The position numbers were made by a program, and so were the translations under genes. Positions 2,071-21,508 of a stretch of DNA of 64,000 bases are shown here, piece after piece (positions within the stretch are counted from its first letter, which is position 1; every line of letters starts with the position of its first letter). Source of the DNA: Motilibacter peucedani (GTDB lineage: Bacteria; Actinomycetota; Actinomycetes; Motilibacterales; Motilibacteraceae); contig NZ_RBWV01000010.1 of assembly GCF_003634695.1 (NCBI RefSeq), positions 310,001 to 374,000 of the forward strand. The letters are read 5' to 3'. The notes beneath the pieces were generated by a model. The model searched no databases and was not told the DNA's origin. It saw only the letters and a program-made list of their open reading frames with translations.

Positions 2071-2077
2071 GCGTGTC

Positions 2078-3729: not shown

Positions 3730-3736
3730 CACTGTC

Positions 3737-4589: not shown

Positions 4590-4873
4590 GCGCCGACGTC
4601 CCGTTCTTCCTCGACGGCCCCGACTGGCTCCCGCCGCTGCTGCGGCAAGGGTGGGAGGCCTACCAGTGGCACCTCGAAGGCCTGGAAGCTGAGGCACCAG
4701 CTCCCGCTGCCGCCTGGCACCGTCACAGCCCCGAGCGCGCCGCACGCGTCGCCGCCGGATGGGTTCCTCGGGACCTGACACTGCAGCCAGCCTTGCCGCG
4801 TTACCTCATGACCACCGAGGAGCTCGCTCGACCGGAGACCCACGCGACCAGCCGGCACGTGGAGGCCGCGTGA
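4586..4873 (+). CDS. Small hypothetical protein preceding RepA
   Basis: The 95-aa product starts at GTG 4586 inside the GTGA overlap with the previous gene; an upstream ATG in the same frame would overlap that gene completely and is rejected. It is rich in Trp and Pro at the N-terminus (FFLDGPDWLPPLLRQGWEAY). The stop overlaps the RepA start (GTGA 4870-4873). The family is not recognised. Confidence 0.55.
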   Translation: MSADVPFFLDGPDWLPPLLRQGWEAYQWHLEGLEAEAPAPAAAWHRHSPERAARVAAGWVPRDLTLQPALPRYLMTTEELARPETHATSRHVEAA

Positions 4874-6015: not shown

Positions 6016-6120
6016 TGTGCACGAACCCTGCACAAACCCCGCACGAACCCTGCACAACCAGTGCCCAAGACGCCCGTCGTGCCGCCCGCAGGAAAGCGGC
6101 GACGACGAAGTGCACGAAGT
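5982..6120 (+). repeat. Iteron-like direct repeats, candidate origin of the element
   Basis: GCACGAACCCTGCACAA occurs exactly at 6019-6035 and again at 6041-6057, 22 bases apart. Partial copies (GCACGAACCT at 5982-5991; GCACGAAG at 6112-6119) flank them. They begin in the last codons of the RepA-type gene and fill the gap after it. Phased repeats next to a RepA-type ATPase are the usual layout of an iteron origin. The rest of 6016-6346 holds the start of the split small gene (6138) and the left end of the IS21 element. Confidence 0.5.
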
Positions 6121-6231
6121 GCAGGAGGTATATAGAGATGCACGTCCCGCACTTCGCAGGAACGAAGGTGGCCGTGACAGCCTGAACTGGCCCCGGTAGG
6201 ACGCCTCGATCCGGCCCCACCTGTTGCTGGC

Positions 6232-6298
6232 TGTGACGGTTTGATCTGGCCCCACTTCGACACGCCGGGTTGGTTGTGACGGTTTGATCTGGCCCCAC
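6232..6298 (+). repeat. Tandem internal repeats at the left end of the IS21 element
   Basis: A 24-bp unit beginning TGTGACGGTTTGATCTGGCC occupies 6232-6255 and recurs exactly at 6275-6298. The spacing from start to start is 43 bp. It shares the CTGGCCCC box with the terminal repeat. Multiple repeats inside the ends are known transposase binding sites in the IS21 family. They also lie upstream of istA, so they could overlap its promoter. Confidence 0.7.
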
Positions 6299-6346
6299 CC
6301 TGAGGGTGGTCATCGACATCGGTGACCAGCGGAGGGCGGGGCGGGG

Positions 6347-7942: not shown

Positions 7943-8739
7943 GTACCCGCACAGGCGTGACGGAGCAGGCCGCGTTAGCAGCGATCGACGGCGGTTGCCG
8001 CACGCTACGGCTACCCACGATGCGCTCACGGTTCGCCGAGATCGCGACTGCCGCGGAACGGGAACAGCTGTCCTACCTGGGATTCCTCGCCGAACTGGTG
8101 ATGGCCGAATGCGATGACCGCGACACCCGCCGCGCTGCCCGGCGCCTCGCAGCAGCTGGGTTCCCACGCGACAAGCGAGTCGACGAGTTCGACTTCGCCG
8201 CCAACCCCATCGTCACCGCCGCCGTGATCAACCAGCTCGCGACGTGCGCCTGGGTCAGGAACGGGCAGCCGCTCTGCCTCATCGGGGACTCCGGCACCGG
8301 CAAAACGCATCTGCTCATCGCGTTGGGAACCGCCGCCGCCCAGGCTGGGCACTCGGTCCGCTACGTCCTCGCCTCAAAGCTGGTCAACGAGCTGGCCGAA
8401 GCGGCCGACGAGAAGCAGCTGTCAAAGACGATTGCCCGCTACGGCCGCCTCGATCTCCTGCTGCTCGACGAGCTGGGCTACATGGAACTCGACCGCCACG
8501 GTGCCGAACTGCTCTTCCAAGTGCTCACCGAACGCGAAGAGAAGTCCGCAGTCGCGATCGCATCCAACGAGCCGTTCTCCGGCTGGACCAAGACCTTCAC
8601 CGACCCCCGGCTCTGCGCCGCCATCGTCGACCGCCTCACCTTCAACGGCCAGATCATCGAAACCGGAACGACCAGCTACCGGCTGGCCCACGCGCGGGCG
8701 AAGCGGTCAACGACCACTGAACGCCGCGCGCAGGCATGA
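7939..8739 (+). CDS. istB: IS21-family helper ATPase IstB
   Basis: The 266-aa AAA+ ATPase is related to DnaC and assembles on target DNA to recruit IstA. Walker A is GDSGTGKTH (residues 116-124) and Walker B is LLLLDELGYM (about 170-179). A sensor-like segment follows (AVAIASNEPFSGW). The start overlaps the istA stop, which couples their translation. It ends three bases before the stop of the converging passenger gene. It is intact and of normal length for the family. Confidence 0.95.
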   Translation: MSTRTGVTEQAALAAIDGGCRTLRLPTMRSRFAEIATAAEREQLSYLGFLAELVMAECDDRDTRRAARRLAAAGFPRDKRVDEFDFAANPIVTAAVINQLATCAWVRNGQPLCLIGDSGTGKTHLLIALGTAAAQAGHSVRYVLASKLVNELAEAADEKQLSKTIARYGRLDLLLLDELGYMELDRHGAELLFQVLTEREEKSAVAIASNEPFSGWTKTFTDPRLCAAIVDRLTFNGQIIETGTTSYRLAHARAKRSTTTERRAQA

Positions 8740-8742
8740 CCG

Positions 8743-9522
8743 TCAAGCGGATCGCAGCCTGACTCCCGGCGGTCGAATTGGCTCGGGCATGTATTCGACG
8801 TGGTACTCCTGACCCAGTTCGGCCTGAAGTTTCGACACAAGCTGGCGACCCGCGTCGACGAACCGTTCAGCATCCGTCGCGGACTCGAACCCACCTCTCT
8901 CCGGCCAACCCGCCATTACCCAGGCATGCTGGGCGTTCCACGCTGCCAGGTCGGAACGAAGTCCCTCGCTGATCGCCAGGTCCGCGGGGTCGACTCCGAC
9001 AGCGCCGTCGCGAGCACTGCGCGAAAGGCCGGAACCGCCGTTCACCGCCATCAGCTTGATCCAGACACGTGGAGTCGACCGCTGAAGCAGCTCCACCGCC
9101 TCGGCGAGAACCTGAGTCTCCAGAAGAGCGCGGTCTTCAGGATGGTCCTCGAGCTCCGACGCCAGCCCGACGAAGATCCGCAGGTCTCCGCTGTCTTCGA
9201 CCTCTGAAGCCCACCGCCAAATCCTGCGCGCTCCGGCCTCCGGCACGATCTCAGCCTCGACAACGGCGCGCGCCGTCTCGCGGACCAGGTTCCACCGTGC
9301 TCGATCCTGGTCAGGAAGCTCGATGCCAAGTTCGTCGAGCACCCGTACGAACAGATCGCGCGAGGCCCTCACATCTGACGGGCTCTGCGCCGCGAGCTCG
9401 CCCAAAGTCGGGCTGTCCACTCCGCGCCCGAGCGCTTCAACTGCGAGCGCGGGCAACTCCTCCGTTCGGAGCTCTCCAGTGACAAGCTCCCACGCTGCAA
9501 TCGCCAACGGGTCTGCTCGCAC
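8743..9522 (-). CDS. Passenger gene of the IS21 element, unknown function
   Basis: The 259-aa product is read from GTG 9522 on the minus strand. An upstream start at 9561 would lie inside the right terminal repeat and is less likely. The N-terminal 60 residues (RADPLAIAAWELVTGELRTE) are helical and resemble the opening of an uncharacterised actinobacterial family, in my recollection. A second helical domain contains IWRWASEVEDSGDLRIF and ETQVLAEAVELLQRS. No signal peptide, membrane segment or obvious catalytic motif is seen. It lies wholly inside the insertion and converges on istB, so it travels with it. A defence, immunity or regulatory role is possible but not shown. Confidence 0.75.
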   Translation of the reverse strand: MRADPLAIAAWELVTGELRTEELPALAVEALGRGVDSPTLGELAAQSPSDVRASRDLFVRVLDELGIELPDQDRARWNLVRETARAVVEAEIVPEAGARRIWRWASEVEDSGDLRIFVGLASELEDHPEDRALLETQVLAEAVELLQRSTPRVWIKLMAVNGGSGLSRSARDGAVGVDPADLAISEGLRSDLAAWNAQHAWVMAGWPERGGFESATDAERFVDAGRQLVSKLQAELGQEYHVEYMPEPIRPPGVRLRSA

Positions 9523-9700
9523 CTCATGAACCCTAGCGACACGAACGCCTGGCGGGGCCACTTCGAGGCGTCACACCGGGGCCAGTTCAGGTTGACATGG
9601 CCACGAAGGACAGGAACCGTCCCAAGACACGCTCCGTCGGCAGGTGGGCAGCAGGTAGTCGGGGACCCCTTGGAGCGGTCGACCTCATGGGAGTCGGCCG

Positions 9701-10231
9701 ATGACGACGCCGCTGTCTTCCCGGTGTCCCGCCCGGTCTAAGCGCTCGGGAGAGCAGTGCAAGAGGTTCGTCGTCGGGGGCGGTGTCTGCCCGATGCATG
9801 GCGGGTCGGCCCCGCAGGTACGCGCGAAGCGTGAGGTGCGAATCGCGCTTCAGGAGCAGCTCGCGTCGTCTGAGCGTCGTTCCTCGGCTGACATCTTGGT
9901 CGACGCGCAGCACGCCGCTGACGTGGTCGCACGAGACCTGCAGACGAGCATCGAGCGCGGCACGGCGACCCCGGGCGACGTCGAGCAGCTGATGGCGGCG
10001 TGGCAGCGGGCTGCGTCGCTGGCGAAGGTGACGGCGGACGCGCGGGTCGATGAGCGGCGGGTCGGTATCGCGGAGCAGCAGGGCGACTTGATGGCCGCCG
10101 GTGTGCAGTGGTTGCTCGACGAGCTCGGTCGGAACGACGCGGCGGGTCGTGCGCTCGCCGGCCGCATGTTCAGCGCCCTCGGGCAGGGTGTGTTGCCGTC
10201 TCGGGTGGTCCCCGGGGAGGTGTCGGCGTGA
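9701..10231 (+). CDS. Phage-type zinc protein with CPMHGG motif
   Basis: This 176-aa protein opens with a probable zinc site made of C9, C20, C30 and H33 (CPARSKRSGEQCKRF, GGGVCPMHGGSAPQ). Similar CxxHGG openings occur in small actinophage proteins that often sit just ahead of the large terminase gene. The remainder is a long helical region (DVVARDLQTSIERGTATPGD) as in small-terminase-like proteins. No large terminase follows here. The start ATG 9701 overlaps the stop of the small gene split by the insertion. A packaging role is inference. Confidence 0.6.
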   Translation: MTTPLSSRCPARSKRSGEQCKRFVVGGGVCPMHGGSAPQVRAKREVRIALQEQLASSERRSSADILVDAQHAADVVARDLQTSIERGTATPGDVEQLMAAWQRAASLAKVTADARVDERRVGIAEQQGDLMAAGVQWLLDELGRNDAAGRALAGRMFSALGQGVLPSRVVPGEVSA

Positions 10232-10650
10232 CGGAGGAGGAGTGGATTCGGCAGCAGGTGCGGCGCGACTTCACGGCCGCGGCGAGGGAGTTCGAGCGGT
10301 TGCTGGCAGACCGCGACCGACGCAACCTAATGCCGAAGGATGGTCAAGACGAGGCCTCGGGCGCCCTGTCTGGGGCGCCCGAGGCCGCTTCCTCAGCTCG
10401 TGTGCTCAGTGGACGGGCAACGCCTCACGACGTCGAATCGGACGGGGAAGTCGCTCTGCGCGGATCGGATCGCGATCTCGACCTCGATCGGCACGAGGTC
10501 GGGGTGGTAGGGGCACCTGTCGGCGGTGCTGGTTGTGGCCATGGCGTCGCGGTCCAATCCGTAGGCGGTCCAGTGCTGGGTCGTTCAAGCGTTGAGAACG
10601 CTACGGACGACGCCAGCGTTACGTCCGGTCGAAACGAGTTGACCTCGTGA
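10228..10650 (+). CDS. Uncertain small protein between the HGG protein and WhiB
   Basis: The frame starts at GTG 10228, overlapping the previous stop as GTGA, and ends at 10650, overlapping the WhiB start as GTGA. Both junctions favour a real 140-aa gene. The first 40 residues (MTEEEWIRQQVRRDFTAAAR) look coding. From about 10353 the frame runs through a 14-bp perfect hairpin. It is then opposite a minus-strand frame with better codon use, and its own residues become Gly/Val/Asp-rich like a shadow. The true gene may be shorter, with a lost stop codon. Confidence 0.4.
   Translation: MTEEEWIRQQVRRDFTAAAREFERLLADRDRRNLMPKDGQDEASGALSGAPEAASSARVLSGRATPHDVESDGEVALRGSDRDLDLDRHEVGVVGAPVGGAGCGHGVAVQSVGGPVLGRSSVENATDDASVTSGRNELTS
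10353..10386. terminator. Strong 14-bp hairpin inside the coding array
   Basis: GGCCTCGGGCGCCC (10353-10366) and GGGCGCCCGAGGCC (10373-10386) pair perfectly around the loop TGTCTG. It lies seven bases beyond the stop of the minus-strand frame at 10393-10542. T-rich bases follow weakly on both sides. It could act as a two-way terminator between converging genes. Confidence 0.5.
10393..10542 (-). CDS. Possible 49-aa minus-strand protein
   Basis: The frame starts at ATG 10542 and ends at 10393, just before the hairpin at 10353-10386. Nearly every third codon base is G or C, and the sequence (STADRCPYHPDLVPIEVEI) is balanced. The opposing plus frame has poorer third-base bias here. It contains two Cys and two His residues. 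No ribosome binding site is obvious and the family is not recognised. If real, it would be transcribed against the WhiB operon. Confidence 0.4.
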   Translation of the reverse strand: MATTSTADRCPYHPDLVPIEVEIAIRSAQSDFPVRFDVVRRCPSTEHTS

Positions 10651-10949
10651 GCGGCCCCGGCGCCCTGTGGGAGCTCGGGCAGGATGCGGCGTCGGCGTGG
10701 CTGGCGCTGGCGAAGGCGCTCGAGGTGTCCGGGCCGACGCCGTGCGAGGCCGCCGACGCCCGCCTGTGGTTCCCAGAGGGCAACGGGCAGCGGTTGGCGT
10801 CGCAGGCCGCGAGGGAGGCGTGTGGGGGCTGCCTCGCCCGTGCTGAGTGCCTGGCGTTCGCACTGGCCGCGGACGAGCGGCACGGCATCTGGGGCGGGCT
10901 CGACGTCGACGAGCGGCGTGAACTGCGCCGGCAGGGGAGGGCAGCGTGA
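10647..10949 (+). CDS. WhiB-family iron-sulfur transcription factor
   Basis: This 100-aa WhiB-like protein has the four cluster cysteines C33, C59, C62 and C68 (PCEAADARLWF, ACGGCLARAEC). They are followed by the GIWGG turn (residues 80-84) and a basic C-terminal end (RRELRRQGR). WhiB proteins bind a 4Fe-4S cluster and usually act with SigA region 4. That is notable because this element is inserted in the sigA tail. Actinophages also encode WhiB copies that alter host regulation. The GTG start overlaps the previous stop by four bases. Confidence 0.9.
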   Translation: MSGPGALWELGQDAASAWLALAKALEVSGPTPCEAADARLWFPEGNGQRLASQAAREACGGCLARAECLAFALAADERHGIWGGLDVDERRELRRQGRAA

Positions 10950-10963
10950 GCTACGACGAGCTC

Positions 10964-11140
10964 TCACGCCGACTTGATGATCACGAGGAGTCCGATGAGT
11001 GCGATGGCGGCGGTGGCCCACATGAGCAGATCGTCGAAAGAACCCCATGGGCGCTTTCCGCGACGCTTGCGCCAGCGGTCCTGGAGGAAGCCGAGCGTGC
11101 CGACGGCGAGCAGCACTATCCCGAACGTCAGGTCGTCCAC
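10964..11140 (-). CDS. Small protein with two membrane segments
   Basis: The 58-aa product is read from GTG 11140 on the minus strand. It has two hydrophobic stretches, LTFGIVLLAVGTLGFL (residues 4-19) and LLMWATAAIALIGLLVIIK (38-56). They are separated by a strongly basic loop (DRWRKRRGKRP). The layout suggests a hairpin with the loop inside the cell. It lies in the gap between whiB and the next plus-strand gene. The plus frame that crosses this region looks like its shadow. Holin-like or membrane-stress roles are possible, but nothing in the sequence decides. Confidence 0.6.
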   Translation of the reverse strand: MDDLTFGIVLLAVGTLGFLQDRWRKRRGKRPWGSFDDLLMWATAAIALIGLLVIIKSA

Positions 11141-11167
11141 GTCCGAATCCTCGCAGGCGGTGTTCTG

Positions 11168-11461
11168 ATGAGCAGCGGGCTGTCGTCTGCGGAGATTACG
11201 CGGGTCGCGGTGCGGGTGCTGCAGGTCGCGCATGCTCAGCCGACCCCGAACGCCGCGGTGGCGGCGGTGCGGAACGTCCTCGAGTCGGTGTCGGATGCGG
11301 ACGCCCGCCGGGTCGTGGCGTGCCTGGCGGTGCTGTCGACGCAGATGGCTCCGGTACGGGCTGACGTGCCGCGCTGGCTGTCGTGGCTTGACCGGGAGCG
11401 CAAGCGCGGCGAGGAGCTGCTGCTGTTGCGCCAGCTGTGGGATGAGGAGGTGGCTCCGTGA
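11168..11461 (+). CDS. Small hypothetical phage-like protein
   Basis: The 97-aa product starts at ATG 11168. The longer frame from 10946 is opposite the membrane-protein gene and is rejected. It is helical (AEITRVAVRVLQVAHAQPTP, then DADARRVVACLAVLSTQM) and ends in a charged stretch (DRERKRGEELLLLRQLWDEE). Its stop overlaps the next start (GTGA 11458-11461). The family is not recognised; the context is the small-gene array of the element. Confidence 0.6.
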   Translation: MSSGLSSAEITRVAVRVLQVAHAQPTPNAAVAAVRNVLESVSDADARRVVACLAVLSTQMAPVRADVPRWLSWLDRERKRGEELLLLRQLWDEEVAP

Positions 11462-11886
11462 GCGGGACAGGTGTGGACGTGGCGCGCGTGCGGGAGTTGC
11501 GGGACGAGGGCATGTCGGTGCGGGCGATCGCGGCCGAGCTCGGGACGTCGAAGTCGACGGTCGCGAGGCTGCTGCGTCCGCCGGCCGTGATGAAGCCTGA
11601 GGCGCCGCCGGTTGAGCCTGAGCGGTACTTCCGGTCGGTGCGGACTGGTGGGCGGTGGCCGGACGACCGGGCCACGGTCGAGCTGTTCCTGGCTGAGCGG
11701 TGGGGCCGGCAGGTGCTGGTCGACGCGAGTGGGCGGTACTTCTGCTCCGCGTGCCAGCGTCTGCTCGACGAGGCGGAGACCCTCGAGCTGGGGAACGGGC
11801 ATGCGGGCACGCCGGGCTTCGGCGTGCGGTCCCGCCGGTGGGTGCAGTTCGGTGACGAGCCGGTGCGGGTGGTGGGGTTGTGGTGA
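11458..11886 (+). CDS. Helix-turn-helix DNA-binding protein
   Basis: This 142-aa protein begins with a resolvase/homeodomain-type helix-turn-helix at about residues 9-38 (RVRELRDEGMSVRAIAAELG, then TSKSTVARLLR). The C-terminal part contains a CSAC pair (residues near 95-98) and a beta-rich tail. GTG 11458 is coupled to the previous stop. It may regulate the element or bind its ends; this is inferred from fold and position. It overlaps the following frame slightly. Confidence 0.7.
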   Translation: MSGTGVDVARVRELRDEGMSVRAIAAELGTSKSTVARLLRPPAVMKPEAPPVEPERYFRSVRTGGRWPDDRATVELFLAERWGRQVLVDASGRYFCSACQRLLDEAETLELGNGHAGTPGFGVRSRRWVQFGDEPVRVVGLW

Positions 11887-12377
11887 GCGCGTGGGCGTCG
11901 GGGGAGGGCGTGTCGTGGCGCGGCGGTGGTTGGCGCCGGCTGGTGTGTGTGGTGCGTCGTCACCGGTGGTCGTCGTCGGTGGTGTCGGGGTCGGGCGCTG
12001 TTGCTGTGGCGTGTGTCCGGTGTTCGGAGTGCCTGCTGGTGCCGTTCGCGGATCGGGCGGACGTGTTGGGCGCGGAGCGGGAGGTGCCGGGGGCCGCGTG
12101 GTTGGGGACGGGTGTGCCGTCGCGGCGGGCGTTGGCGATGTTGGGTGCGTTGAACTTGGACGACGGTCCGTCGCTGGCTCGGCTGCGGGCGGAGGCTGCG
12201 TCGTCGCCTGGCCCGTCGTTGGATGCCCAGTTGCGGCTGTCGTTGCTGTTGCTGGACTTCGCGGCGCGGGACGGGTGGGCGTCGCGGGGGGCGCTGTTGA
12301 ACCGGGTGGGGTTGCTGCACGAGCGGGACTTGCTGGAGGCGCAGCGTGTGGCGGCTGGCGGTGAGGGCCTTGTCTGA
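11883..12377 (+). CDS. Hypothetical protein with CxxC pair
   Basis: The 164-aa frame starts at GTG 11883, overlapping the previous stop as GTGA. The first 45 residues are rich in Trp, Arg and Ser, and include a CVRCSEC cluster that may bind metal. A helical domain follows (LDAQLRLSLLLLDFAARDGW). Codon bias is unusual, with many GTG and TTG codons. The family is unknown. Confidence 0.5.
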   Translation: MSAWASGEGVSWRGGGWRRLVCVVRRHRWSSSVVSGSGAVAVACVRCSECLLVPFADRADVLGAEREVPGAAWLGTGVPSRRALAMLGALNLDDGPSLARLRAEAASSPGPSLDAQLRLSLLLLDFAARDGWASRGALLNRVGLLHERDLLEAQRVAAGGEGLV

Positions 12378-12798
12378 TGAGCGGTTGGTGACGGCGTTGT
12401 CTGGCCCGTGCCTGGTGGTCGGCCCCGAGGGGGCGTTCTTGTTGCTGCGGGCGCTGCAAGAGATGGAGCGCCGCCTGCGTCGGGACGGTGTCGGTGTGTC
12501 GGGTGAGGTGCGGCGGTTGAGGGAGGCGTTGGAGCCGGCGGCGTTGGCGTGGGTCGAGTCGGTGGGTGGTTCCGCTGGCGGTAGTGCGGAAGTTCCGCAG
12601 CGGCCGGAGTCGTCAGAGTGGGTGGAGTCGATGACGGTGGAGGAGGTGGCGCAGGTGCTGGGGACTTCGACACGGTACGTGCGCTCTCTGGCCATGTCGG
12701 AGGCTTTGCCGGCTCGCAAGGTGGGCCGGTCGTGGACGTTCGATCAACTCGATGTGCTGGCGTTCGCCGGCGCCCGGCAGGACAGGAACAGCGCATGA
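12361..12798 (+). CDS. Xis-like / MerR-type HTH protein
   Basis: The 145-aa product has a C-terminal excisionase-type winged helix at about residues 95-138 (MTVEEVAQVLGTSTRYVRSL, ALPARKVGRSWTFDQLDVLA), the HTH_17 pattern of Xis and DNA-binding helper proteins. The N-terminal half is helical and Glu/Arg-rich. Xis proteins bend att DNA and direct integrases to excision; here that is the most useful hypothesis. GTG 12361 is preferred. The start overlaps the preceding frame by 17 bases, and the stop overlaps the next ATG (ATGA 12795-12798). Confidence 0.7.
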   Translation: MRALSDERLVTALSGPCLVVGPEGAFLLLRALQEMERRLRRDGVGVSGEVRRLREALEPAALAWVESVGGSAGGSAEVPQRPESSEWVESMTVEEVAQVLGTSTRYVRSLAMSEALPARKVGRSWTFDQLDVLAFAGARQDRNSA

Positions 12799-13550
12799 GC
12801 AAGCACGGCACGGACGCGCAGGACTTCATCGCGGCCCGCCCTCTGGGTGGTGGCGCGACGAAGGTCGCTGCTGCGGCGGCGGAGTCGCTGAGTGACGTCG
12901 AGTTGGTGAAGTGGGCCTATGCGACGGGGCGCGTCGATGCGCGAGGAGCCGACAAGGCCCGCATCATGATGTTCTTCGACAAGAAGCGTGCGGAGACGCG
13001 TGCAGAGCTGCTCGCCGCAGAAGGCGACCGGCATCCCACCACCGGCAGCTACCTCGACCTGAGCGAGCAGGCCGTGATCGAGCGGCTCGGCGAGTACAAG
13101 AAGCAGAACGACGAGGCGGCCCGCGAAGCGCGACAGCGAGCGGAGATCGCCGCGTCTAGGGCGGCGACGCAGGCGGCTGTTGCCGCGGCGTCTGCGTCGC
13201 GCGCGCCCGTCCGGTTGTCGGCTGTGGCGGCGACGCAGGGTCTGCCGCCGGTGATGGCGTCGGGGATCGACCCGTCGGTGCTGCTGCGGGTGCCGCAGGT
13301 GGCGTGGAACGGGCTGGCTCACAACCCGAACCGGGCGGAGGTGGCGCAGGCGATCCTCGAGCTGACGTCGCTGCCGGCGGGGAGCGCGGAGCTGACGGAC
13401 ACGGCGCTGATCTACGCGAGCAACGAGGACGCGACGGCGCATCACCACGCCGCGGACGCGGCGGCGCGTGCGGCGGACGAGGCCGCGGTCGACAACGACC
13501 CGGAGTTCAAGGCGTTCGTGCAGGGCCTGTCGGAGTGGGACGGCCGGTAG
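12795..13550 (+). CDS. Hypothetical coiled-coil protein
   Basis: The 251-aa product starts at ATG 12795, coupled to the Xis-like gene. Residues about 95-140 form a charged, Ala-rich coiled coil (EYKKQNDEAAREARQRAEIA). A Pro/Val-rich stretch and an acidic C-terminal end (VDNDPEFKAFVQGLSEWDGR) follow. The organisation resembles phage scaffold-like or head-tail accessory proteins, but no defining motif is present. The family is not recognised. Confidence 0.6.
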   Translation: MSKHGTDAQDFIAARPLGGGATKVAAAAAESLSDVELVKWAYATGRVDARGADKARIMMFFDKKRAETRAELLAAEGDRHPTTGSYLDLSEQAVIERLGEYKKQNDEAAREARQRAEIAASRAATQAAVAAASASRAPVRLSAVAATQGLPPVMASGIDPSVLLRVPQVAWNGLAHNPNRAEVAQAILELTSLPAGSAELTDTALIYASNEDATAHHHAADAAARAADEAAVDNDPEFKAFVQGLSEWDGR

Positions 13551-13689
13551 TGCGGGTCGCGGCTCGCGGCGTCAACGTCACCCCTGGGCTGTTGCTGGTC
13601 CGGCGCGGGGGAGCGAAGGTAGGTGAGCGGTGCAGTCCCTTCTCGCTGCGGTGACCCTGCCTGCGCCAACGGCCGCTGTCCCCGTCTTC

Positions 13690-14187
13690 TCAGAGCAGCT
13701 TGGAGAAGCGGTCGAGTTCGCTGCGCGCCCGCAGCAGACTGTACGCAAGCTGCGGCATTGTGGCCGCATCGAGGTGCTCAAGGAACTGCTCGGCGAGGGT
13801 GAGGCAGTCGTGGGCGACGGAATTCATCCATCGTCCGAGGTCGCCGATGACTTGGAGTTCGTCGAGGTTGGCCGGCACTCGGTGCAAGCTGAAGTGCACG
13901 ACGTGCTGCGACGCGGTGTCCCACACCGCGCCGAGACGCTCTGCTTCGGGGCCGGTCGCGCGAGGGACTCCGAAGTGCGACGAGTTGAAGTCGCGACGGT
14001 CGCCGTGCTTCACCAGGAATTCGATGAGCAGCCGTGCGCTCGTGAGGAAGGACTCGATGCACGCTTCCTGGATGACCAGGTCGCTGGTGGCGGCCATACG
14101 CACGGGTGTCCCGCCGACTTGGTCGATCGCGAGCCGCAGGTAGTCCGTCATGCGCTGCAACTGGTCAGTGTTGGGCTGCGTCGGCAT
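13690..14187 (-). CDS. Minus-strand helical protein, possibly HEPN-like
   Basis: The 165-aa product starts at ATG 14187. It is all-helical (DQLQRMTDYLRLAIDQ; IESFLTSARLLIEFLVKHGD; LGRWMNSVAHDCLTLAEQFL). The helical layout with conserved-looking Arg and His positions suggests the HEPN group of RNA-cleaving or structural proteins, although the signature RxxxxH motif is not evident. It is transcribed against its neighbours, as solo cargo or defence genes often are. The function is not known. Confidence 0.6.
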   Translation of the reverse strand: MPTQPNTDQLQRMTDYLRLAIDQVGGTPVRMAATSDLVIQEACIESFLTSARLLIEFLVKHGDRRDFNSSHFGVPRATGPEAERLGAVWDTASQHVVHFSLHRVPANLDELQVIGDLGRWMNSVAHDCLTLAEQFLEHLDAATMPQLAYSLLRARSELDRFSKLL

Positions 14188-14231
14188 GGTATTGCAGGCT
14201 AGGGCGCGGCATGCAGTCCCGGGAGGCAGGC

Positions 14232-16424
14232 ATGCCTGAAGCGCCTACGAAGGAGCCGCGGAGCGCCTTGGCGGCGCTGGTGCCGTCCCCCTCGCCGAAC
14301 GCGCGGCCGGTGTCGCCGGACTACAAGCCGACCCCCGCGCCAAAGCCGACGTTCACCGTCATCCCACCGTCGAAGACGCAGCAGGCGGAGGACGACCGGG
14401 TCGCGAAGCTCGCGCCGCGCACGCTGGGCGCGTACGAGATCGCGCTCACCGCGCAGAAGGCGGGGTTCAAGGGTGACGCGCTCGTCGTCGCCGTAGCGGT
14501 CGCCGAAGCCGAGTCGTCCGGGCGGACCGACGCGACCGGCCCGGTAGTCCCCGACATCCCCGCCAACGACTGGATCGGCGCGGTCCGCTCGGCGATGGGC
14601 CTGTGGCAGATCATGCCGGCAGCGGCGCAGTCCGGGGCCGCGTACACCGGCTCCGCGTACGACCGCGTCCTCGACCAGTCCGTGTCGGGTGTGCGGGACT
14701 CGCGGCTGCTGTTCGACCCCGACTTCAACGCCCGCTCCGCGTACGCCATCTCCAAGGGCGGCACCAACTGGAAGCCGTGGTCGACCTACACCAGCGGCGC
14801 TTACCTCACCCACATGGCTGACGCCCGCGCCGCCGTCCAGTCCATCGGCGCCGCACCCGTCGACGGCAACCCGTCGGCGTCGACGTCCGGTGAGCCGTTC
14901 GTCGACGTCACCTGGTCCGACGGCGCCCTCATCGGCGTGCACTTGGGCGGCACCGCCCGCGGCACCGACTTCGGCGCGAAGGTCGTCGGCGGCTCCATCG
15001 ACCAGTCCGTGAAGCAGCCGTCGGAGCTCACCCTTGAGATTCACGACGCGACCCTCGGCTACCTCACGTCGTCGAAGCTGAAGCGCGGTGTGCGGTTGCA
15101 GGTCAACCGGCAGCGGTTCACAGTCACCGCCGTCGAGATCAGCGACGGCGGCGCGGGCGCGCACCTCACCGTGCAGGCCATGCCCACCGGCATCGTGTCG
15201 CTGATGCACACCGACCCGCCCACCGTCACCGGCATGCCCGCCGGCGACTACGTCGGTCTCCTCGCCCGCGCCGTTGGCGTGAGCTACATGCCCGCGTCAG
15301 GCAAGGGGGTAGCGACCGGTGCGGGGGACGCCGGGCAGGGCGCCACGGAACCGCAGGACGTGAAGGCGAACCCGACTGATGACGTGCTGTCGGTGCTGAA
15401 CCCTTACCGGCCGACGCCGCCGGCGGGTCAGCGGCGGGAGAACGCGTGGGAAGTCGTGCAGCGGCTCAACACCGCCAACGGGTACGAATGTTGGGAAGAC
15501 GCCCGCGGCCTGTACTGGGGGCCGGCAACGTCCAGCATGTTCGCGCCGGCGCTGTACGTGTCGTGGCGCGGGCAGCCCGCGACGTCCCCGTCGGGGGCGG
15601 TCCGCGCGCTGCAGGTGCCGTCGGTGTCGTTCTCCACGCCCGGCAGGGGCCGGTACGCGCGCGTGTCCGGTTCGTTCCAGATCGCCGCCGCCGACGCCGG
15701 CAGGGTGGTGCTGGGGCAGCGCGTCGACATGGCGCTCGGCGCGCTACTCGTCGCCCGCCCCGACGTGACCGACCCGCGCGGCATCCTCGGCTCCAACGCC
15801 CCGGCCGTGCACTCACCGACCGGCGGGCCGGCCACAACGCAGGCAGCGGACGGCATCACCGACACCGGGCAGCTGCGTGTCACGCGCATCCACCGTGACC
15901 TCGGCCGGCTCGAGCAGCCGTTGACGGTCGAGTTTGAGTCGGCGGTCAACCTGATCGGTACCGACGCGCCTGACCCGGCGATGAAGGCACCTGTCGGGCT
16001 GCCCGTGCCGGCTCTGTTGGACGGCACTGTGAACCCGTACAGCTCGGACGTGGCGGTGGCGACGGCCAGGAAGGCATCGCGTGGGACTTGTGTGCCGAAC
16101 TCGTGCATGCACACGGTGGGGAACTGGTACGGCTACCAGTCATCGGGCTGGGAGCGGGCGATCGACGGGTGGAACGGCACCCCCGACCGGTACAAGCACC
16201 CCGACGACCCGAACCCGCCGGCGGGCGCCCTGTGCTACTGGGCGGGCGGAGCGGCCGGACATGTGGCGATGTCGATAGGCGACGGCACGGTCATCAGCAC
16301 CGACGCCCCTCAGATCGGGCGGGTCGGCGACCCGCTGCCCCTGGCATGGTTTAGCGCACATTGGCGAGGCAAGCGGTACCTCGGTTGGTGCAGCCCCTAC
16401 TTCCCGCACGGGGTGCCCTATTGA
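14232..16424 (+). CDS. Tail-hub/lysin fusion: transglycosylase, gpD-like region, CHAP/NlpC-like end
   Basis: The 730-aa protein starts at ATG 14232, five bases after GGGAGG. After a Pro-rich linker, residues about 60-205 form a lytic transglycosylase: a catalytic glutamate in AEAESSG and the SLT motif GLWQIMP. Residues about 220-560 are beta-rich (LTLEIHDATLGYLTSSKLKR) and fit the gpD/gp27-like hub of phage tails. The C-terminal 140 residues have CVPNSCMH and AGHVAMSIGDG, the Cys and His blocks of a CHAP/NlpC-type hydrolase. Such proteins sit at the tail tip and cut the cell wall. No other tail gene is present, which is odd. Confidence 0.8.
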   Translation: MPEAPTKEPRSALAALVPSPSPNARPVSPDYKPTPAPKPTFTVIPPSKTQQAEDDRVAKLAPRTLGAYEIALTAQKAGFKGDALVVAVAVAEAESSGRTDATGPVVPDIPANDWIGAVRSAMGLWQIMPAAAQSGAAYTGSAYDRVLDQSVSGVRDSRLLFDPDFNARSAYAISKGGTNWKPWSTYTSGAYLTHMADARAAVQSIGAAPVDGNPSASTSGEPFVDVTWSDGALIGVHLGGTARGTDFGAKVVGGSIDQSVKQPSELTLEIHDATLGYLTSSKLKRGVRLQVNRQRFTVTAVEISDGGAGAHLTVQAMPTGIVSLMHTDPPTVTGMPAGDYVGLLARAVGVSYMPASGKGVATGAGDAGQGATEPQDVKANPTDDVLSVLNPYRPTPPAGQRRENAWEVVQRLNTANGYECWEDARGLYWGPATSSMFAPALYVSWRGQPATSPSGAVRALQVPSVSFSTPGRGRYARVSGSFQIAAADAGRVVLGQRVDMALGALLVARPDVTDPRGILGSNAPAVHSPTGGPATTQAADGITDTGQLRVTRIHRDLGRLEQPLTVEFESAVNLIGTDAPDPAMKAPVGLPVPALLDGTVNPYSSDVAVATARKASRGTCVPNSCMHTVGNWYGYQSSGWERAIDGWNGTPDRYKHPDDPNPPAGALCYWAGGAAGHVAMSIGDGTVISTDAPQIGRVGDPLPLAWFSAHWRGKRYLGWCSPYFPHGVPY

Positions 16425-16528
16425 CCGAGCCGGTGGGATGTGCCGGTTACCTTGTTCCGCTGACGTCGGCACTCTCATCCTCTAGCGTCAGCGTGGTGCG
16501 CCGGAACGACTGCCTGAGCCCTTCGTCT

Positions 16529-16990
16529 ATGGGTCGCCTCACGTTCGGGCTTGTGGGATTAATGCTCGCCGCAGTGCTGGTGGGCTGCTCCTCGTCTGGT
16601 GCTGCCAGCAGCGTGGCGGCTGAGCCGGCCGCGTCCGCCCCTCCACCCGCTGCGGCGCCTACGCCCGCCGAGTGCCCACCGATCAAGGCTGTGCTGACAG
16701 AATTGGCGGCGCACAGTGGGGATTCGCCGGAGCAGTTGTCCGACTTGAGCGAGCAGTTGGCGAGCGCGCACCTCGACGCTGTCGCGGCGCCGCCCGACGA
16801 CGCGGGGTTCATGTTGTTGACGACGAGCCAGGCCTTGCTAGACCTGCTGATGACCGAAGCACTGCCGAGCATCCCTGTCGATCAGTTGGAGTCTTCAAAG
16901 GCAGCGGCTGCGGCCAACTTCGGCCACGCTCACGATCAGTTCGTCGCGGTCTGTGGGCCCCTTCCGGCGACGACCTTGAGCGTCGGGTAG
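16529..16990 (+). CDS. Small lipoprotein
   Basis: The 153-aa product starts at ATG 16529, giving a type II signal peptide (MGRLTFGLVGLMLAAVLVGC) with lipobox LVGC and cysteine 20 as the lipid anchor. A Ser/Ala/Pro-rich linker leads to a helical domain with two further cysteines (AECPPIKAV near residue 49 and AVCGPLP near the end) that could form a disulfide. An earlier GTG or ATG start would spoil the signal peptide. It may be a surface-exclusion or accessory protein of the element; its function is unknown. Confidence 0.7.
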   Translation: MGRLTFGLVGLMLAAVLVGCSSSGAASSVAAEPAASAPPPAAAPTPAECPPIKAVLTELAAHSGDSPEQLSDLSEQLASAHLDAVAAPPDDAGFMLLTTSQALLDLLMTEALPSIPVDQLESSKAAAAANFGHAHDQFVAVCGPLPATTLSVG

Positions 16991-17107
16991 CAACAAGATC
17001 ACTCCTGCAGCTGCCGCGCACTCGCCGTTGATTGAGCCGTTCGCCTGACGAACAACCACCGGCCGTCTTACGGTGCTCACCGTCCGCTAAGTCCTTGGGG
17101 GGAAACG

Positions 17108-17356
17108 ATGAGCCGTCACACCACCAACCGCGTCCTGGCCGCACTCGCCGGCGTAGGCATCGCCACGCTCAGCATCGGGGTCATCGCGCCCGCAGCCGAG
17201 GCAGCGCCCAGCCACTCGATCATCGTCGCGGCTAAGCCCATGCACCCCCGCGGCCCCGGTGGTGCGACCGCCAAGTGCCGCGACGGGTCCTACTCGCACA
17301 GCAAGCACCGCCAGGGCACCTGCTCGCACCACCACGGTGTCGCCCGCTGGTACTGA
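17108..17356 (+). CDS. Secreted DUF3761 protein
   Basis: The 82-aa preprotein starts at ATG 17108 with a strong GGGGGG site eight bases upstream. It has a cleavable signal peptide (TNRVLAALAGVGIATLSIGV) with AEA ahead of the likely cut. The mature end holds the DUF3761 pattern CRDGSYSHSKHRQGTCSHH followed by HGVARWY, with two cysteines. DUF3761 domains are small extracytoplasmic modules of unknown role, common in bacteria and phages. It sits in a run of envelope-related genes on the element. Confidence 0.8.
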   Translation: MSRHTTNRVLAALAGVGIATLSIGVIAPAAEAAPSHSIIVAAKPMHPRGPGGATAKCRDGSYSHSKHRQGTCSHHHGVARWY

Positions 17357-17366
17357 GAGCGTCACA

Positions 17367-17714
17367 GTGGCTGGCAAAGGCAAGAAGGGCGGCTCGGCCG
17401 GTGGGTCGGAGTCAGACGACAGGCAGTGCGTGATTTGTCGGGACGTGATCGAGCCCGACCCTGACGAACCGGGTTCATGGATCGACGCGTGGGGCGATTA
17501 CCGGGGCAGTGACCTCGAAGGGCTCGACGTCTACCACGATCACGATCCCGACCCCGACAGCGTTCGCACGATCGCGTCCCAGAGGGCTCTTGTGCGTGCT
17601 CGCGCTGACGAGCGACGGACCCGGGAGAGGCAGCGGCTGATACAGGGTGCCCTCGTTGGAGGGTGGGTCGTGTTCACCGTGGTCTGTCTGTGGGTGGCCT
17701 TCACGCGGTACTGA
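17367..17714 (+). CDS. Small protein with CxxC and one C-terminal membrane segment
   Basis: The 115-aa product starts at GTG 17367, ten bases after the DUF3761 stop. It has a basic start, a CVIC pair (residues 22-25) and an acidic central stretch (YHDHDPDPDS). One hydrophobic C-terminal helix is present (GALVGGWVVFTVVCLWVAFT). It is probably a tail-anchored membrane protein facing the cytoplasm. The family is not recognised. Confidence 0.6.
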   Translation: MAGKGKKGGSAGGSESDDRQCVICRDVIEPDPDEPGSWIDAWGDYRGSDLEGLDVYHDHDPDPDSVRTIASQRALVRARADERRTRERQRLIQGALVGGWVVFTVVCLWVAFTRY

Positions 17715-17716
17715 AG

Positions 17717-17989
17717 CTAGGTGCCTGCCAGTCGGGCTGTCGAACAGGGCCAAGCCCGCTCACACTCGACGCAGACACTCAGGCCATCGACGTCCGGATG
17801 AGACGCCTGGTGCAGCGTGAGCAGAGCGGCGACGAGGCGTTCGTACGGTCGGCCTCCGTGGTGCCGGTCGAGGTGCGGCTCAGCTGCCAGTAGGACCGCA
17901 CGGGCGACGGCGTACTCGCCCCCAGCTGGGACCGTGGGGGGCAGCATGCGAGCCGCGGCCTCCACCGCCTCAGCCAGGTGCGCGCTCAT
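17717..17989 (-). CDS. Small minus-strand protein with C-terminal cysteines
   Basis: The 90-aa product is read from ATG 17989; the longer frame to 18103 is Ser/Cys/Arg-rich and probably not translated. It is helical (MSAHLAEAVEAAARMLPP) and ends in CVECERAWPCSTARLAGT. That cysteine cluster resembles the closing zinc motif of many small proteins in actinobacterial elements. It ends three bases after the preceding plus-strand stop, so the two converge. Confidence 0.6.
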   Translation of the reverse strand: MSAHLAEAVEAAARMLPPTVPAGGEYAVARAVLLAAEPHLDRHHGGRPYERLVAALLTLHQASHPDVDGLSVCVECERAWPCSTARLAGT

Positions 17990-18139
17990 GCCGCAGCATC
18001 GGCTCGCCGCTCTTCCGCTTGAGGCGGCGACGGCGAACTGTCCGCCGCAGCTCACCGACGAGCCCAAGGCGTCAGAGTTGCGTCGAGATCGTCTATCAGG
18101 CATCTACGATGCCAAGCCACTAGATCTGGGGGTTATCGC

Positions 18140-18958
18140 GTGGTGGAGATGAGCGACTGGGCCGGGCTCGTCAGGGGCCGGACAGACGACTTCGACGCCC
18201 TGACCGTCAGTGCTACCGTCGCGCCGGCTGGGGGCAGTTGGAGCGGGCCGTTCCGGGTCGTTGGTAGTGACGGGAACGACTACTTCGTCAAGTCCCTCGA
18301 GACGTGTCCCGCTGGAGAGGGCGCGTCTCTGGCGATCGAGCACGTAGTGGCGGGTGTTGGCCGGCTGATCGGTGCTCCGGTCTGCACCACCAGTCTGATC
18401 CGCATCACCTCAGACATCGCTGGCTGGGAACCTCGCCCCGGCGTCCCGCTGGCCCCAGGCCTTGCTCACGCGAGCCGGGCGCTCGAGCACGCAGACGAGA
18501 TGGGTCGGCCGGCCCTGTCGGCGCGCCATCAGGACGACAACCGCCGTCGCCACGCCGGCATCTACGCCCTCTTCGACTGGTGCGTGGGCTCTGACAACCA
18601 GTGGTTGTACGACCTCGACAACGACCGGACCATCTACAGCCACGACCATGGCCTCTACCTTCCCCCGCCCGGGCGTGCGATTATAGATGCAGCGTCGCTT
18701 CAAGCCCAGGTGGACGTGCCGAACCAGCTCTCAGACCCCGCTGACGGTCTTCTCCCGGGTGCGGTCGAGGATGTGGCGCAGGCGTTGGAGCGGGTGACGC
18801 GAGCCGACTTGGCGGCGGTGCTGAACTCCGTTCCCGCTGCGTGGCCCGTGACCGATGCGGACCTCGAAGCACTCGGCTGGTTCTTGGAGAGGAGATGCAC
18901 CCCGGTGGCGGAACGACTTCGGCGGATGCCTCTAACGACGACTGGGACCGCTCAATGA
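18140..18958 (+). CDS. HipA-like kinase-fold protein (HipA_2 type)
   Basis: The 272-aa protein matches the short HipA-like family rather than full HipA toxins. It shows an ATP-binding lysine (NDYFVKSLE, about residue 54), a catalytic-loop-like block (FDWCVGSDNQWLYD, about 150-163) and a metal-binding block (YSHDHGLYLP, about 171-180). HipA proteins phosphorylate protein targets; the substrates of this family are not known. The GTG 18140 start follows GGGGG. Its stop overlaps the DUF3037 start (ATGA 18955-18958). No HipB-like antitoxin lies next to it. Lower G+C than the neighbours suggests cargo. Confidence 0.75.
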   Translation: MVEMSDWAGLVRGRTDDFDALTVSATVAPAGGSWSGPFRVVGSDGNDYFVKSLETCPAGEGASLAIEHVVAGVGRLIGAPVCTTSLIRITSDIAGWEPRPGVPLAPGLAHASRALEHADEMGRPALSARHQDDNRRRHAGIYALFDWCVGSDNQWLYDLDNDRTIYSHDHGLYLPPPGRAIIDAASLQAQVDVPNQLSDPADGLLPGAVEDVAQALERVTRADLAAVLNSVPAAWPVTDADLEALGWFLERRCTPVAERLRRMPLTTTGTAQ

Positions 18959-19827
18959 GCCGGTTCAGCTACTCCCTTGTGCGCTGTGTGCCCGACCCCA
19001 GGACGGGCGAGTTCGTTAACGTCGGCGCGATCGCCGGCAGTGCCGAAGCCGGAGAGTGGGCCGTCCGGCAGGTCAGCAGCGAAGCGCGCGTGCGCAAGCT
19101 CGCCGGCCCGCGCGAACTTGAGGCGGTTCATGGCTTCCTTGCGCGCGTTGGCGAGCAGGTCGACATCCAGATGGAACTGGACGCGGGCGATGTCAATGAG
19201 TCGCTACCCGCGTCCTGGCTTGAGGACCTGCACCATGATCACCGCAATGTGGTCCAGCTATCGCCGCCGGCCGTGGTCGCCGCATCCAGCGCGGAGTCGG
19301 CCCTAGACTTGATCTTCGAGCGCATGCTCATCGACCCCGTATCACAGCCGCGCGACTTCGTCGATAAGAAGAAGGTTGTAAGCGGTCTTCGTGCCGCCTA
19401 CAAGCGCGCAAGTATCGCTGACGATCTTGTCAAGACTCGCGTTGACCTCTTCGTTGGGGACCACCTCCGAGCACCCCTGGACTTCGCCATCGCCAACGGA
19501 GTCGCCCTCCAGTTGACGCAGGCCTGGTCCTTCCAACGGGCGAGTGTTGACCAGGTAACGACCGAAGTGAAGGCATGGGGGTATGCCCTCGCCAGGCTGC
19601 GAGAGGGCGCGGCCGCTCGCGTCGTCGGTGTCGGCGGTCACGTGAGCTCCCTGGCGCCCGAAGTTGACCTCGAGGTCGTTGTCGCCCTACCGAAGACAAA
19701 GGACCAGGAGGCCGCATACGAGGAGGCCACGCAGGTGTTCAATCAGTTGGACGCTTCGGTGCGCCCCCTGGACGAGGTCGACTTCGTTAGTGCTAAGGCG
19801 GCTGAGCTTGTGGCTGCACATCACTAA
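18955..19827 (+). CDS. DUF3037 protein with long C-terminal extension
   Basis: The 290-aa protein opens with the DUF3037 pattern (FSYSLVRCVPDPRTGEFVNV, residues 4-23). DUF3037 proteins are normally near 130 aa, so about 160 residues are additional, mostly helical with a VDLEVVVALPKTKDQEAAYE strand-helix end. It is translationally coupled to the HipA-like gene. Pairing of a HipA-like kinase with DUF3037 recurs in bacteria and suggests a two-part system, but I know of no established mechanism. It ends 18 bases before the convergent right integrase. Confidence 0.75.
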   Translation: MSRFSYSLVRCVPDPRTGEFVNVGAIAGSAEAGEWAVRQVSSEARVRKLAGPRELEAVHGFLARVGEQVDIQMELDAGDVNESLPASWLEDLHHDHRNVVQLSPPAVVAASSAESALDLIFERMLIDPVSQPRDFVDKKKVVSGLRAAYKRASIADDLVKTRVDLFVGDHLRAPLDFAIANGVALQLTQAWSFQRASVDQVTTEVKAWGYALARLREGAAARVVGVGGHVSSLAPEVDLEVVVALPKTKDQEAAYEEATQVFNQLDASVRPLDEVDFVSAKAAELVAAHH

Positions 19828-19844
19828 GGAGGAACTCCACTGAG

Positions 19845-20774
19845 TCATGACACGGCACCGACCCGGGGTAGGTTCAGGAGCGCGGCGGTCGTCTCCTCGT
19901 CCGCGACCTGCACGTACCCCGCGGTCGTCTGCAGCGACGCGTGCCGCAGCAGCTCCTGAGCGACCCGCAGGTTGGCGCCGGAGCGCACGAGCTCGGTGCC
20001 GTACCAGTGCCGCAGGCTGTGCGGCGTGCCGGGGATGCCGGCGCGGCGCATCGCGTTCCCGATGATCGTCGACACCGACCCGCCAAGGATCGGCGCGGCG
20101 GCCAGCGACTCGTCGGGCCGGCGCCGACCGGAGCCCTGCACGTTGCCGACGTGCGTCGGAAACCAGAACCCGCGCCGCGGGTAGCTGGCCGCTTCCGCGG
20201 CGATGATCGGGTGCAGCGGCAGCGCCGAGTCGAGCCCGCCCTTCCCGACGACCCGCAGCTGCTGGGAGACGAGGTCGACGTCCTCGCCCCTGATCTTCGC
20301 GATCTCATGCACCCGCAGCCCCTGGTACGCGGCCAGCAAGATCATCGTGCGGGTGCGCCTGTGCATGCGGACGTTGAGCAGCGCCTCGAGATGCCCGGTC
20401 GCGACCGGCTTGGGGCGGCGGCGCGGTGTCCGCGGCGGGGGGAGCAGGTCGCACGGATTGTCCGTCCGCAGGCCCATGGCCTGCAGCCACTTGAACCACG
20501 ACTTGAGGCTGGCGTAGTACGTCTGCTTGGTGCCGGCGCTAAACGGGCCGTCGAGCCCGCGTGCGATCTCCTGAGCGGAGGCGTGAACCGGGTCCGCGCC
20601 GGTGCGGGCGGCGAACCGGACGACGAGGTTGTGCCGATCGTGGATGGTGCGAGCGCCGTTGCCCTGGGCGCGCTGCCAGATCGCCCACTGCCGCAGCAGC
20701 AGGTCGAGCTCGACCGTGGGGATGTACCGGGGGCGGATCGCTGTCCCAGGTCGCGTGGCGAGGGCGGTGCTCAC
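19845..20774 (-). CDS. Tyrosine recombinase (right integrase, XerC/D-like)
   Basis: The 309-aa enzyme has an N-terminal SAM-like domain (residues 22-110) and a complete catalytic domain: R154 (QGLRVHEIA), K178 (VVGKGG), H252 and R255 (HSLRHWYG), H278 (LLRHASLQT) and Y287 (TAGYVQV). It differs strongly from the left integrase. It reads inward from the right end, and its start (GTG 20774) overlaps the stop of the DUF6907-like gene. Whether this enzyme or the left one acts on the sigA core is not shown by sequence. Confidence 0.92.
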   Translation of the reverse strand: MSTALATRPGTAIRPRYIPTVELDLLLRQWAIWQRAQGNGARTIHDRHNLVVRFAARTGADPVHASAQEIARGLDGPFSAGTKQTYYASLKSWFKWLQAMGLRTDNPCDLLPPPRTPRRRPKPVATGHLEALLNVRMHRRTRTMILLAAYQGLRVHEIAKIRGEDVDLVSQQLRVVGKGGLDSALPLHPIIAAEAASYPRRGFWFPTHVGNVQGSGRRRPDESLAAAPILGGSVSTIIGNAMRRAGIPGTPHSLRHWYGTELVRSGANLRVAQELLRHASLQTTAGYVQVADEETTAALLNLPRVGAVS

Positions 20775-21394
20775 GCCTGGCCGCCGGCCCGCTCGACCGT
20801 CGCAGCGGCACGGAGCACCGCGCGGGACACGCGGCGCGCTTCCGCCGCGGTGAGCGCTCGACCGGTCGGCACGTTGACGACGACCTCCGGCTCGAGCAGT
20901 TCGTGCACGGGCGCGTCGCCGAGGATGGCGCGCTCGTACTGGTCGACGGCCACGCTCACCTCCCCGCCACCGAGCAGCGGGAAGCGGTCGAGCACCGCGT
21001 GGTGCGAGCGTGACGTCTCACCGCCGAGCACCTCGTCGAACGCGTGCGACTCCGCGCGCCGCTCGCACCACGCCGGGCACGGGAGTGCGGTCGCCGCCAG
21101 GTCGGGCGCCGCTTCCGCTAGAGACGGGTCCTGAGGCGCGCGGCCGGCAGTCGCGAGGAGCTGCTGCAGCGCGCCGGAGAGGGTGCCCGCGTCCGCCAGC
21201 GACAGGACGCCGGCGGCCGGCAGGTCGACGACGACCCGGGTCGGCTCGCCACGGTCGGCGATCAGCCACCCGCTCGGCCCGGCCTGCGGCCCGAGCGGCT
21301 CGCTCACGCACTGGTCGACGCCGGCGACGTCGGGGCTGTCAGGGGCGATGTGCTGGCTGCACCACGGCTGGTGGGCGGTGGTCGTGATGGTCAT
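20771..21394 (-). CDS. DUF6907-like protein coupled to the right integrase
   Basis: The 207-aa protein appears to hold two related halves. Each opens with a Trp-Cys block, QPWCSQH (residue 9 onward) and CPAWCERRAESH (about 105), then beta strands with regular Val/Glu content. This is the pattern I associate with DUF6907 proteins of actinobacterial elements; the name is from memory. The start ATG 21394 follows GGGAG. Its stop overlaps the integrase start by four bases. It is the last gene before attR, a usual place for recombination helpers or regulators. Confidence 0.65.
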   Translation of the reverse strand: MTITTTAHQPWCSQHIAPDSPDVAGVDQCVSEPLGPQAGPSGWLIADRGEPTRVVVDLPAAGVLSLADAGTLSGALQQLLATAGRAPQDPSLAEAAPDLAATALPCPAWCERRAESHAFDEVLGGETSRSHHAVLDRFPLLGGGEVSVAVDQYERAILGDAPVHELLEPEVVVNVPTGRALTAAEARRVSRAVLRAAATVERAGGQA

Positions 21395-21436
21395 TGCGGG
21401 CGTCTCCCTTAGTCGGAGATATTGCGCCGCACAACG

Positions 21437-21474
21437 CTTCCACCTGCGACGCTGTGGAAGTGGTGCACCACAGC
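21437..21474. promoter_or_regulatory. Overlapping inverted repeats next to attR
   Basis: CTTCCAC (21437-21443) pairs with GTGGAAG (21454-21460). GCTGTGG (21451-21457) pairs with CCACAGC (21468-21474). The two hairpins share bases 21454-21457, so only one can form at a time. The second holds the perfect palindrome TGGTGCACCA (21461-21470). They lie between the DUF6907-like start and attR, and could be integrase arm sites or an operator for the right integrase operon. Confidence 0.4.
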
Positions 21475-21490
21475 GCTAACTCGTTCCTAG

Positions 21491-21508
21491 TGCGCGACTA
21501 CCTGGACT
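21491..21508 (+). repeat. attR: right copy of the 18-bp attachment core
   Basis: TGCGCGACTACCTGGACT is repeated exactly from the sigA end (1941-1958). It is followed by TAG at 21507-21509 when the last GAC codon is read in frame with sigA (GAC TAG at 21504-21509). This is most simply the native sigA stop codon. The upstream base context differs from sigA, so this is only the displaced tail. Confidence 0.88.

Follow-up and report, generated by a model that had tools for sequence, protein, structure and literature searches.

The window analyzed here, a stretch of 64,000 nucleotides from the Motilibacter peucedani genome, carries a 19.55-kb element (1941-21508) at the 3' end of the host's principal sigma-factor gene, and within that element a protein of 730 residues in which a predicted tail hub lies between two wall-cutting domains; we refer to it as the hub-lysin. 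The ends of the element can be read directly. The attL core TGCGCGACTACCTGGACT (1941-1958), at the 3' end of the principal sigma-factor (rpoD/hrdB-like) gene, forms an 18-bp direct repeat with the attR core (21491-21508), both on the forward strand, and with 0-3 mismatches the same core lies at both ends of four sister elements. The congeneric genome G001 preserves the empty site: there, ~130 bp separate the sigma-factor gene from its conserved neighbor, as against 19.65 kb in the window. A bounded integrative element is therefore well supported.

Except where stated, the genes of the element lie on the forward strand. The first tyrosine recombinase, int1 (2078-2980; Phage_integrase, 4e-27), adjoins attL and has relatives 66-73% identical to it, six of which have the rpoD 3' end directly upstream. 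A small conserved protein (3671-4048) typical of the element family (at least eight further elements whose integrases are related encode homologues of it, ~48-60% identical) is followed by an AAA_25 (RepA/DnaB-like) replication ATPase (4870-6015; AAA_25, 5e-37) related to phage primases and helicases. A 2.4-kb IS21 insertion (IstA and IstB, 6347-8739; NF033546, 2e-65, and NF038214, 3e-77) means that the element is not pristine, and several small ORFs in its left part have a weak coding signal. The HGG-motif phage protein encoded at 9701-10231 (phrog_3678, 8e-10) belongs to phage neighborhoods, in some actinophages a few genes ahead of terL; its homologue in the element L193 also matches phrog_10899, a terminase small subunit (E 8e-4), and it is possible that the HGG-motif protein is small-terminase-like. 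Two regulators come next, a WhiB protein (10647-10949; Whib, 1.6e-16) and a helix-turn-helix protein (12346-12798; HTH_17, 3e-9), the latter 30-32% identical over 96-114 aa to HTH proteins of the sister element L142 and the related contig L143. In the slot right before the structural cargo, an ORF overlapping the HTH stop encodes an uncharacterized protein of 251 aa (12795-13550), which has no convincing homologue and is not detectably related to what L142, L143 and the sister element L183 encode at the corresponding position.

Directly 3' of the hub-lysin gene lies a small lipoprotein (16529-16990), recognized from its sequence by the lipobox LVGC, and further on a HipA-like kinase and then a DUF3037 protein (18140-19827; HipA_2, 8e-7; DUF3037, 1e-14; PADLOC PDC-M66B, 5e-10), a pair that we consider candidate defense or toxin-antitoxin cargo. 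On the reverse strand near attR are a second tyrosine recombinase, int2 (19845-20774; Phage_integrase, 7e-21), and upstream of it a DUF6907 protein (20771-21394; 4e-6). The two recombinases are distantly related and sit at opposite ends of the element. The sister element L181 has a 60% identical copy of int2 in the same position, split into two overlapping frames.

The hub-lysin reading frame (14232-16424, forward strand) is intact and without internal stops, with a third-position G+C of 0.91 and a strong high-G+C codon bias. We place the start at the ATG at 14232; an alternative in-frame ATG at 14211 is possible. Based on Pfam, profile alignment and conserved residues, the protein runs from an SLT lysozyme-like domain through a tail hub to an NlpC/P60-like domain. 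The transglycosylase motif GLWQIMP, on which the initial annotation had remarked, is borne out by an SLT_3 match over residues 73-185 (E 6e-20) within a lysozyme-like domain of residues ~73-200 (14448-14831). The nearest phage relatives of this domain are the entry lysozymes of actinobacterial tectiviruses, at 35-40% identity (hhalign E 5e-18 to that of phage WheeHeim), with which the catalytic-type Glu94 and the GLWQI residues are conserved. The C-terminal end, described before as CHAP/NlpC-like, can now be named an NlpC/P60-like domain (residues ~600-727; 16029-16412): over its ~125 residues it shares about 40-47% identity with the ends of hydrolases that actinobacteria secrete, two such enzymes with the same C-terminal domain being encoded in the host's own genome, and Cys625, His677 and the next conserved Asp are all aligned and kept. 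Judged by their sequences, both wall-cutting domains are intact.

Both end domains also occur in secreted host hydrolases, and combined SLT and NlpC/P60 enzymes are found in some integrative conjugative elements, which would fit a wall hydrolase of the cell or of the element, whether endolysin, release enzyme or DNA-transfer hydrolase. We consider this highly unlikely. Neither a signal peptide nor a membrane segment is evident from the sequence, no conjugation gene of actinobacterial integrative conjugative elements (FtsK-like TraB, type IV secretion) was matched among the element ORFs scanned with Pfam, and a hub region of ~370 residues lies between the lytic domains. The earlier suggestion that the cell could use the protein for release, offered beside a satellite role, finds no support, given the same lack of a signal peptide or membrane segment, and no holin was recognized.

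The middle of the hub-lysin (residues ~221-590; 14892-16001, forward strand) had been called hub-like from its sequence. It has no Pfam, PHROG family or PDB match by sequence search, and nothing in the collections searched is convincingly related to it in pairwise comparison; with tblastn of the region, no match in 50,697 phage records had an E value below 7. We compared it with a profile of 24 actinobacterial hub proteins of the contractile-injection-system type; a profile from 18 of the 24 matches the PDB hubs 9gtr, Pvc8, Afp8, pyocin R2 and VgrG. Aligned by hhalign as a single sequence, residues 229-466 match the 24-sequence profile over 205 columns (Prob 96.7, E 4.7e-10, score 77.8). The score is 73.4 once the profile member found via the query (P0001) is left out, Prob values ranging from 96.3 to 96.7 and E values from 2e-9 to 5e-10, and two independent sub-profiles of the hub set each give an E value of ~1e-5. 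Against these scores of 73-78, the controls stayed far lower, at no more than 28.4 for 141 unrelated proteins, 22.1 for 60 shuffles and 12.6 for the reversed sequence. The aligned stretch covers the first hub domain and a motif of the third domain (ENAWEVVQRLNTANGYECWEDARGLYWGP); the last third of the hub region is without confident alignment. When the hub region was used to scan 393 genomes of the class, most matches had no gene in that frame; the one sensible match, L040, is a hub, and having been picked by the query itself it was kept out of the control comparison. AlphaFold2, run on the single sequence without homologues, gave pLDDT values of 35 for the whole protein and 31 for the hub region, too low for a usable model. 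From the profile comparison, we consider it well supported that the middle of the hub-lysin would adopt the VgrG/gpD/Pvc8 hub fold, as the initial annotation had guessed.

The resemblance to the gp27, gpD, Pvc8 and VgrG hubs (PDB 6j0m, 6u5h, 9gtr) is confined to the hub region. Unlike these hubs, the hub-lysin has an SLT domain in front and an NlpC/P60-like domain behind, with no recognized OB-fold spike, and there is hardly any pairwise sequence similarity. A hub with a C-terminal wall hydrolase is also the plan of the Tal tail-tip proteins of Gram-positive siphophages, from which the hub-lysin differs by its added N-terminal SLT domain, an unusual feature; compared directly by profile, it matches actinobacterial Tal proteins only weakly (Prob 4-10), and a search of 148 actinobacterial genomes with PF06605 (Prophage_tail) was without a match. 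Whereas fused lysozymes usually sit after the tail hub, here the SLT domain precedes it. This order, SLT-hub-NlpC, is unusual in one protein and was not found outside the hub-lysin in the collections scanned. Peptide-pattern scans of 2.9 million viral contigs and 84,980 genomes returned no close relative, such scans matching exact short peptides only, so that distant relatives would escape them.

Because the hub profile is one of contractile injection systems, and such a system is present in the same-family genome G004, the hub-lysin might be part of a host injection system or tailocin with its other parts elsewhere in the genome. Of the readings weighed here, this seems to us the least probable, and very unlikely: a search of the host genome for that hub family found nothing at E 0.001, a mobile element with defined ends encloses the gene, and the hub is not followed by any recognizable spike domain.

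The SLT match also raised the possibility of a tectivirus origin, which we rejected. The 'tail proteins' of WheeHeim and Toil do not match the hub region, the element contains no recognizable double jelly-roll capsid protein or packaging ATPase of tectiviruses, and a tail hub of this sort is absent from tectiviruses; what the hub-lysin has in common with the tectivirus entry lysozymes (WheeHeim gene 26, Toil gp23) is the SLT domain only. Two observations on tectiviruses arose in passing. WheeHeim gene 26 (NC_055060.1; L102, 9124-9792), annotated as a glycosyltransferase, is by sequence an SLT lysozyme-like domain, as is the Toil entry lysozyme. A 17.7-kb linear plasmid of Micromonospora sp. 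NBC_01405 (CP109533.1, L104) encodes, along with many small genes, an entry lysozyme like those of tectiviruses and a C40 peptidase, and from this tectivirus-like layout the annotated plasmid may be a tectiviral linear prophage.

Among the scanned ORFs of the element there is no large terminase subunit, portal, capsid, tape measure or sheath, which agrees with the initial annotation for the large terminase, capsid, tape measure and sheath, nor is there a complete prophage set of terminase, portal, capsid and tail operon. The whole host genome has no TerL_ATPase or PhageMin_Tail match, two families that do not cover all phages. The hub-lysin gene thus stands outside any full tail operon here, and the profile comparison shows a hub, the two points on which its first reading had been made to depend.

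Searching with int1 led to the virus contigs L142 (72% identity) and L143 (66%) and to 27 other genomes among 393 of the class. Four sister elements have both ends mapped at the same rpoD end, L181 (10.0 kb), L182 (10.9 kb), L183 (15.4 kb) and L142 (15.7 kb); for element ends outside the rpoD site, mapping relied on repeats only. ParE lies beyond the right end of L142. Counting the window element, at least five different elements attach at the principal sigma-factor 3' end, with a conserved right-end sequence C(C/A)TAGTGCGCGACTA. Their cargo differs. L181 and L182 carry an S78 prohead protease and an HK97 major capsid protein, L183 carries a small terminase subunit, and L142 carries a tape measure of 1084 aa (6163-9417). 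L143 has a tape measure (7401-10649) homologous to that of L142, at 33.5% over 617 aa, and an ATPase 58.7% identical, and a related virus contig, L211 (integrase 59%), has TerL, portal and a capsid-sized ORF. No sequence match to the hub-lysin was found in the sister elements, and only the window element is known to carry one. As observations apart, the contig L207, with a related ATPase, has a prohead protease directly before a tape-measure-like gene (14097-17657), and the right half of L183, the sister in G257, encodes a 605-aa protein (9050-10867) that by eye resembles a SIR2-like defense protein.

Over 1059 aa, the L142 tape measure shares 59% identity with its counterpart in L213 (10001-13153), a siphophage-like contig with a tail operon, terminase, portal, capsid and Tal-type hub, which indicates that tail genes pass between such elements and tailed phages. 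A siphophage like L213 is also a candidate helper type. Despite the divergence of the two elements, L142 and L143 retain full-length, homologous tape measures, and we take this to mean that such cargo is kept.

This bears on whether the hub-lysin is a relic, the last surviving tail gene, without present function, of a decayed prophage or mosaic island. The element has no other tail genes, it has suffered the IS21 insertion, the small left-hand ORFs have a weak coding signal, and the unusual domain order could reflect fusion by recombination within a decaying island. We nonetheless think decay unlikely, if worth taking seriously: the gene is undamaged over its 730 codons, its codon usage is strongly biased and its catalytic residues are conserved, the att sites and both integrases are intact as well, and the sisters likewise combine a partial virion module with an element that is intact in other respects, the tape measures in L142 and L143 being full-length.

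We propose instead, with somewhat more confidence than doubt, that the hub-lysin is structural cargo of an actinobacterial phage satellite and would replace or join the tail-tip hub of a helper. A satellite life style of the element is likely from its gene content. It has an integrase and a specific att site (int1, the 18-bp repeats, and a site common to four other mapped elements), a replication module and regulators (AAA_25, WhiB, HTH_17) and, by gene content, an incomplete virion gene set that would make it dependent on a helper; its 19.55 kb, including the 2.4-kb IS21, falls within the satellite size of about 10-20 kb. The mapped sister elements, with partial virion modules and the same integrase type (66-72% identity), lend support to this reading. 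Counting against our proposal, we found no helper phage, a hub-lysin is known from this one element only, the SLT domain precedes the hub, the last third of the hub region lacks a confident alignment, and IS21 has inserted in the element.

Precedent for tail substitution comes from PLE11 of Vibrio cholerae, in whose virions the satellite's own hub and tape measure replace those of ICP1 (PMC12987554). PLE11 and related satellites encode a partial tail set, including the baseplate hub BhuB and a tape measure, that is used in chimeric tails, and putative tmp genes are also present in PLE-like elements and in a sampling of cf-PICIs (PMC12987554); besides this paper, our literature search found none joining 'phage satellite' and 'baseplate hub'. 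Together with the bounded element and the sisters' partial virion modules, PLE11 strengthens the satellite half of the earlier suggestion. The differences are considerable: the host phylum is unrelated, and PLE11 holds tape measure, chaperone and hub together, whereas the window element has a hub only, fused to two wall-cutting domains, with tape measures in sister elements.

Other satellite classes fit less well. Classical PICIs are defined as having no structural or lytic genes (PMC6092414), and since the hub-lysin is both structural and lytic in character, the element is not one of them. With cf-PICIs the element shares integration, an integrase, a replication ATPase and regulators, but the full head and packaging set defines that class (PMC10690885), and apart from the possible small-terminase-like HGG-motif protein, no capsid, portal or terminase of its own was found in the window element, which has a tail-tip part instead. 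Traits like those of cf-PICIs do appear in the relatives, with TerL, portal and a capsid-sized gene in L211 and protease and capsid protein in L181 and L182. The Streptomyces satellites MulchRoom and MiniFlayer, compared by description, are also actinobacterial, and MiniFlayer has its own tail-fiber protein; unlike the window element, they have a capsid and packaging set and no primase (PMC10690885). The element thus belongs to neither PICI class and would work like a chimeric-tail satellite, with putative incorporation of the hub-lysin into the tail.

In the mechanism that we propose, helper infection would lead the element to excise and to replicate with its own AAA-family replication protein. 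Assembly would next place the hub-lysin at the tail tip, as a substitute for the helper hub or an addition to it, and there the hub region is expected to trimerize and plug the tail tube. At injection, the SLT and NlpC/P60-like domains could cut the glycan and peptide bonds of the wall. It is also conceivable that the hub-lysin acts as a dominant-negative tail tip that spoils the tails of an infecting phage, in which case it would serve defense and not packaging. Tail assembly is a known defense target (Tai, PMC11364771; Rta, PMC12987554), and the HipA-like/DUF3037 pair of the element matches a candidate defense family. A decoy, however, needs no two intact wall-cutting domains with conserved active sites, and the capsid and terminase parts in the sisters point to particle building, so we judge such sabotage to be rather improbable.

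The gene content of the sister elements, each with a different virion part, suggests that they swap pieces of their own into stolen virus particles. More speculatively, and we offer this as a tentative possibility that we would not bet on, these elements may form an actinobacterial satellite family with one chromosomal site, a shared integration and replication core and a modular structural slot, through which the lineages pirate virion assembly at different stages (capsid, packaging, tail length or tail tip), each with a part of its own, and the two-enzyme hub of the window member rewrites the entry end of the virion. If so, this hub could alter which cell walls the stolen particle penetrates.

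Satellite-encoded hubs as such are known from PLE11; what would therefore be new is a satellite hub fused to two wall-cutting domains, in Actinobacteria. Satellites had been believed to steal whole tails before 2026, when chimeric tails were demonstrated for PLE. If Actinobacteria contain an unrelated second satellite family, some of whose members carry a tape measure and one a hub-lysin, tail rewriting would become a general strategy, and one could test whether satellites select by what route they cross the cell wall. With clear bounds, one insertion site and several variants, these elements offer a natural comparison of the virion parts that a satellite can replace.
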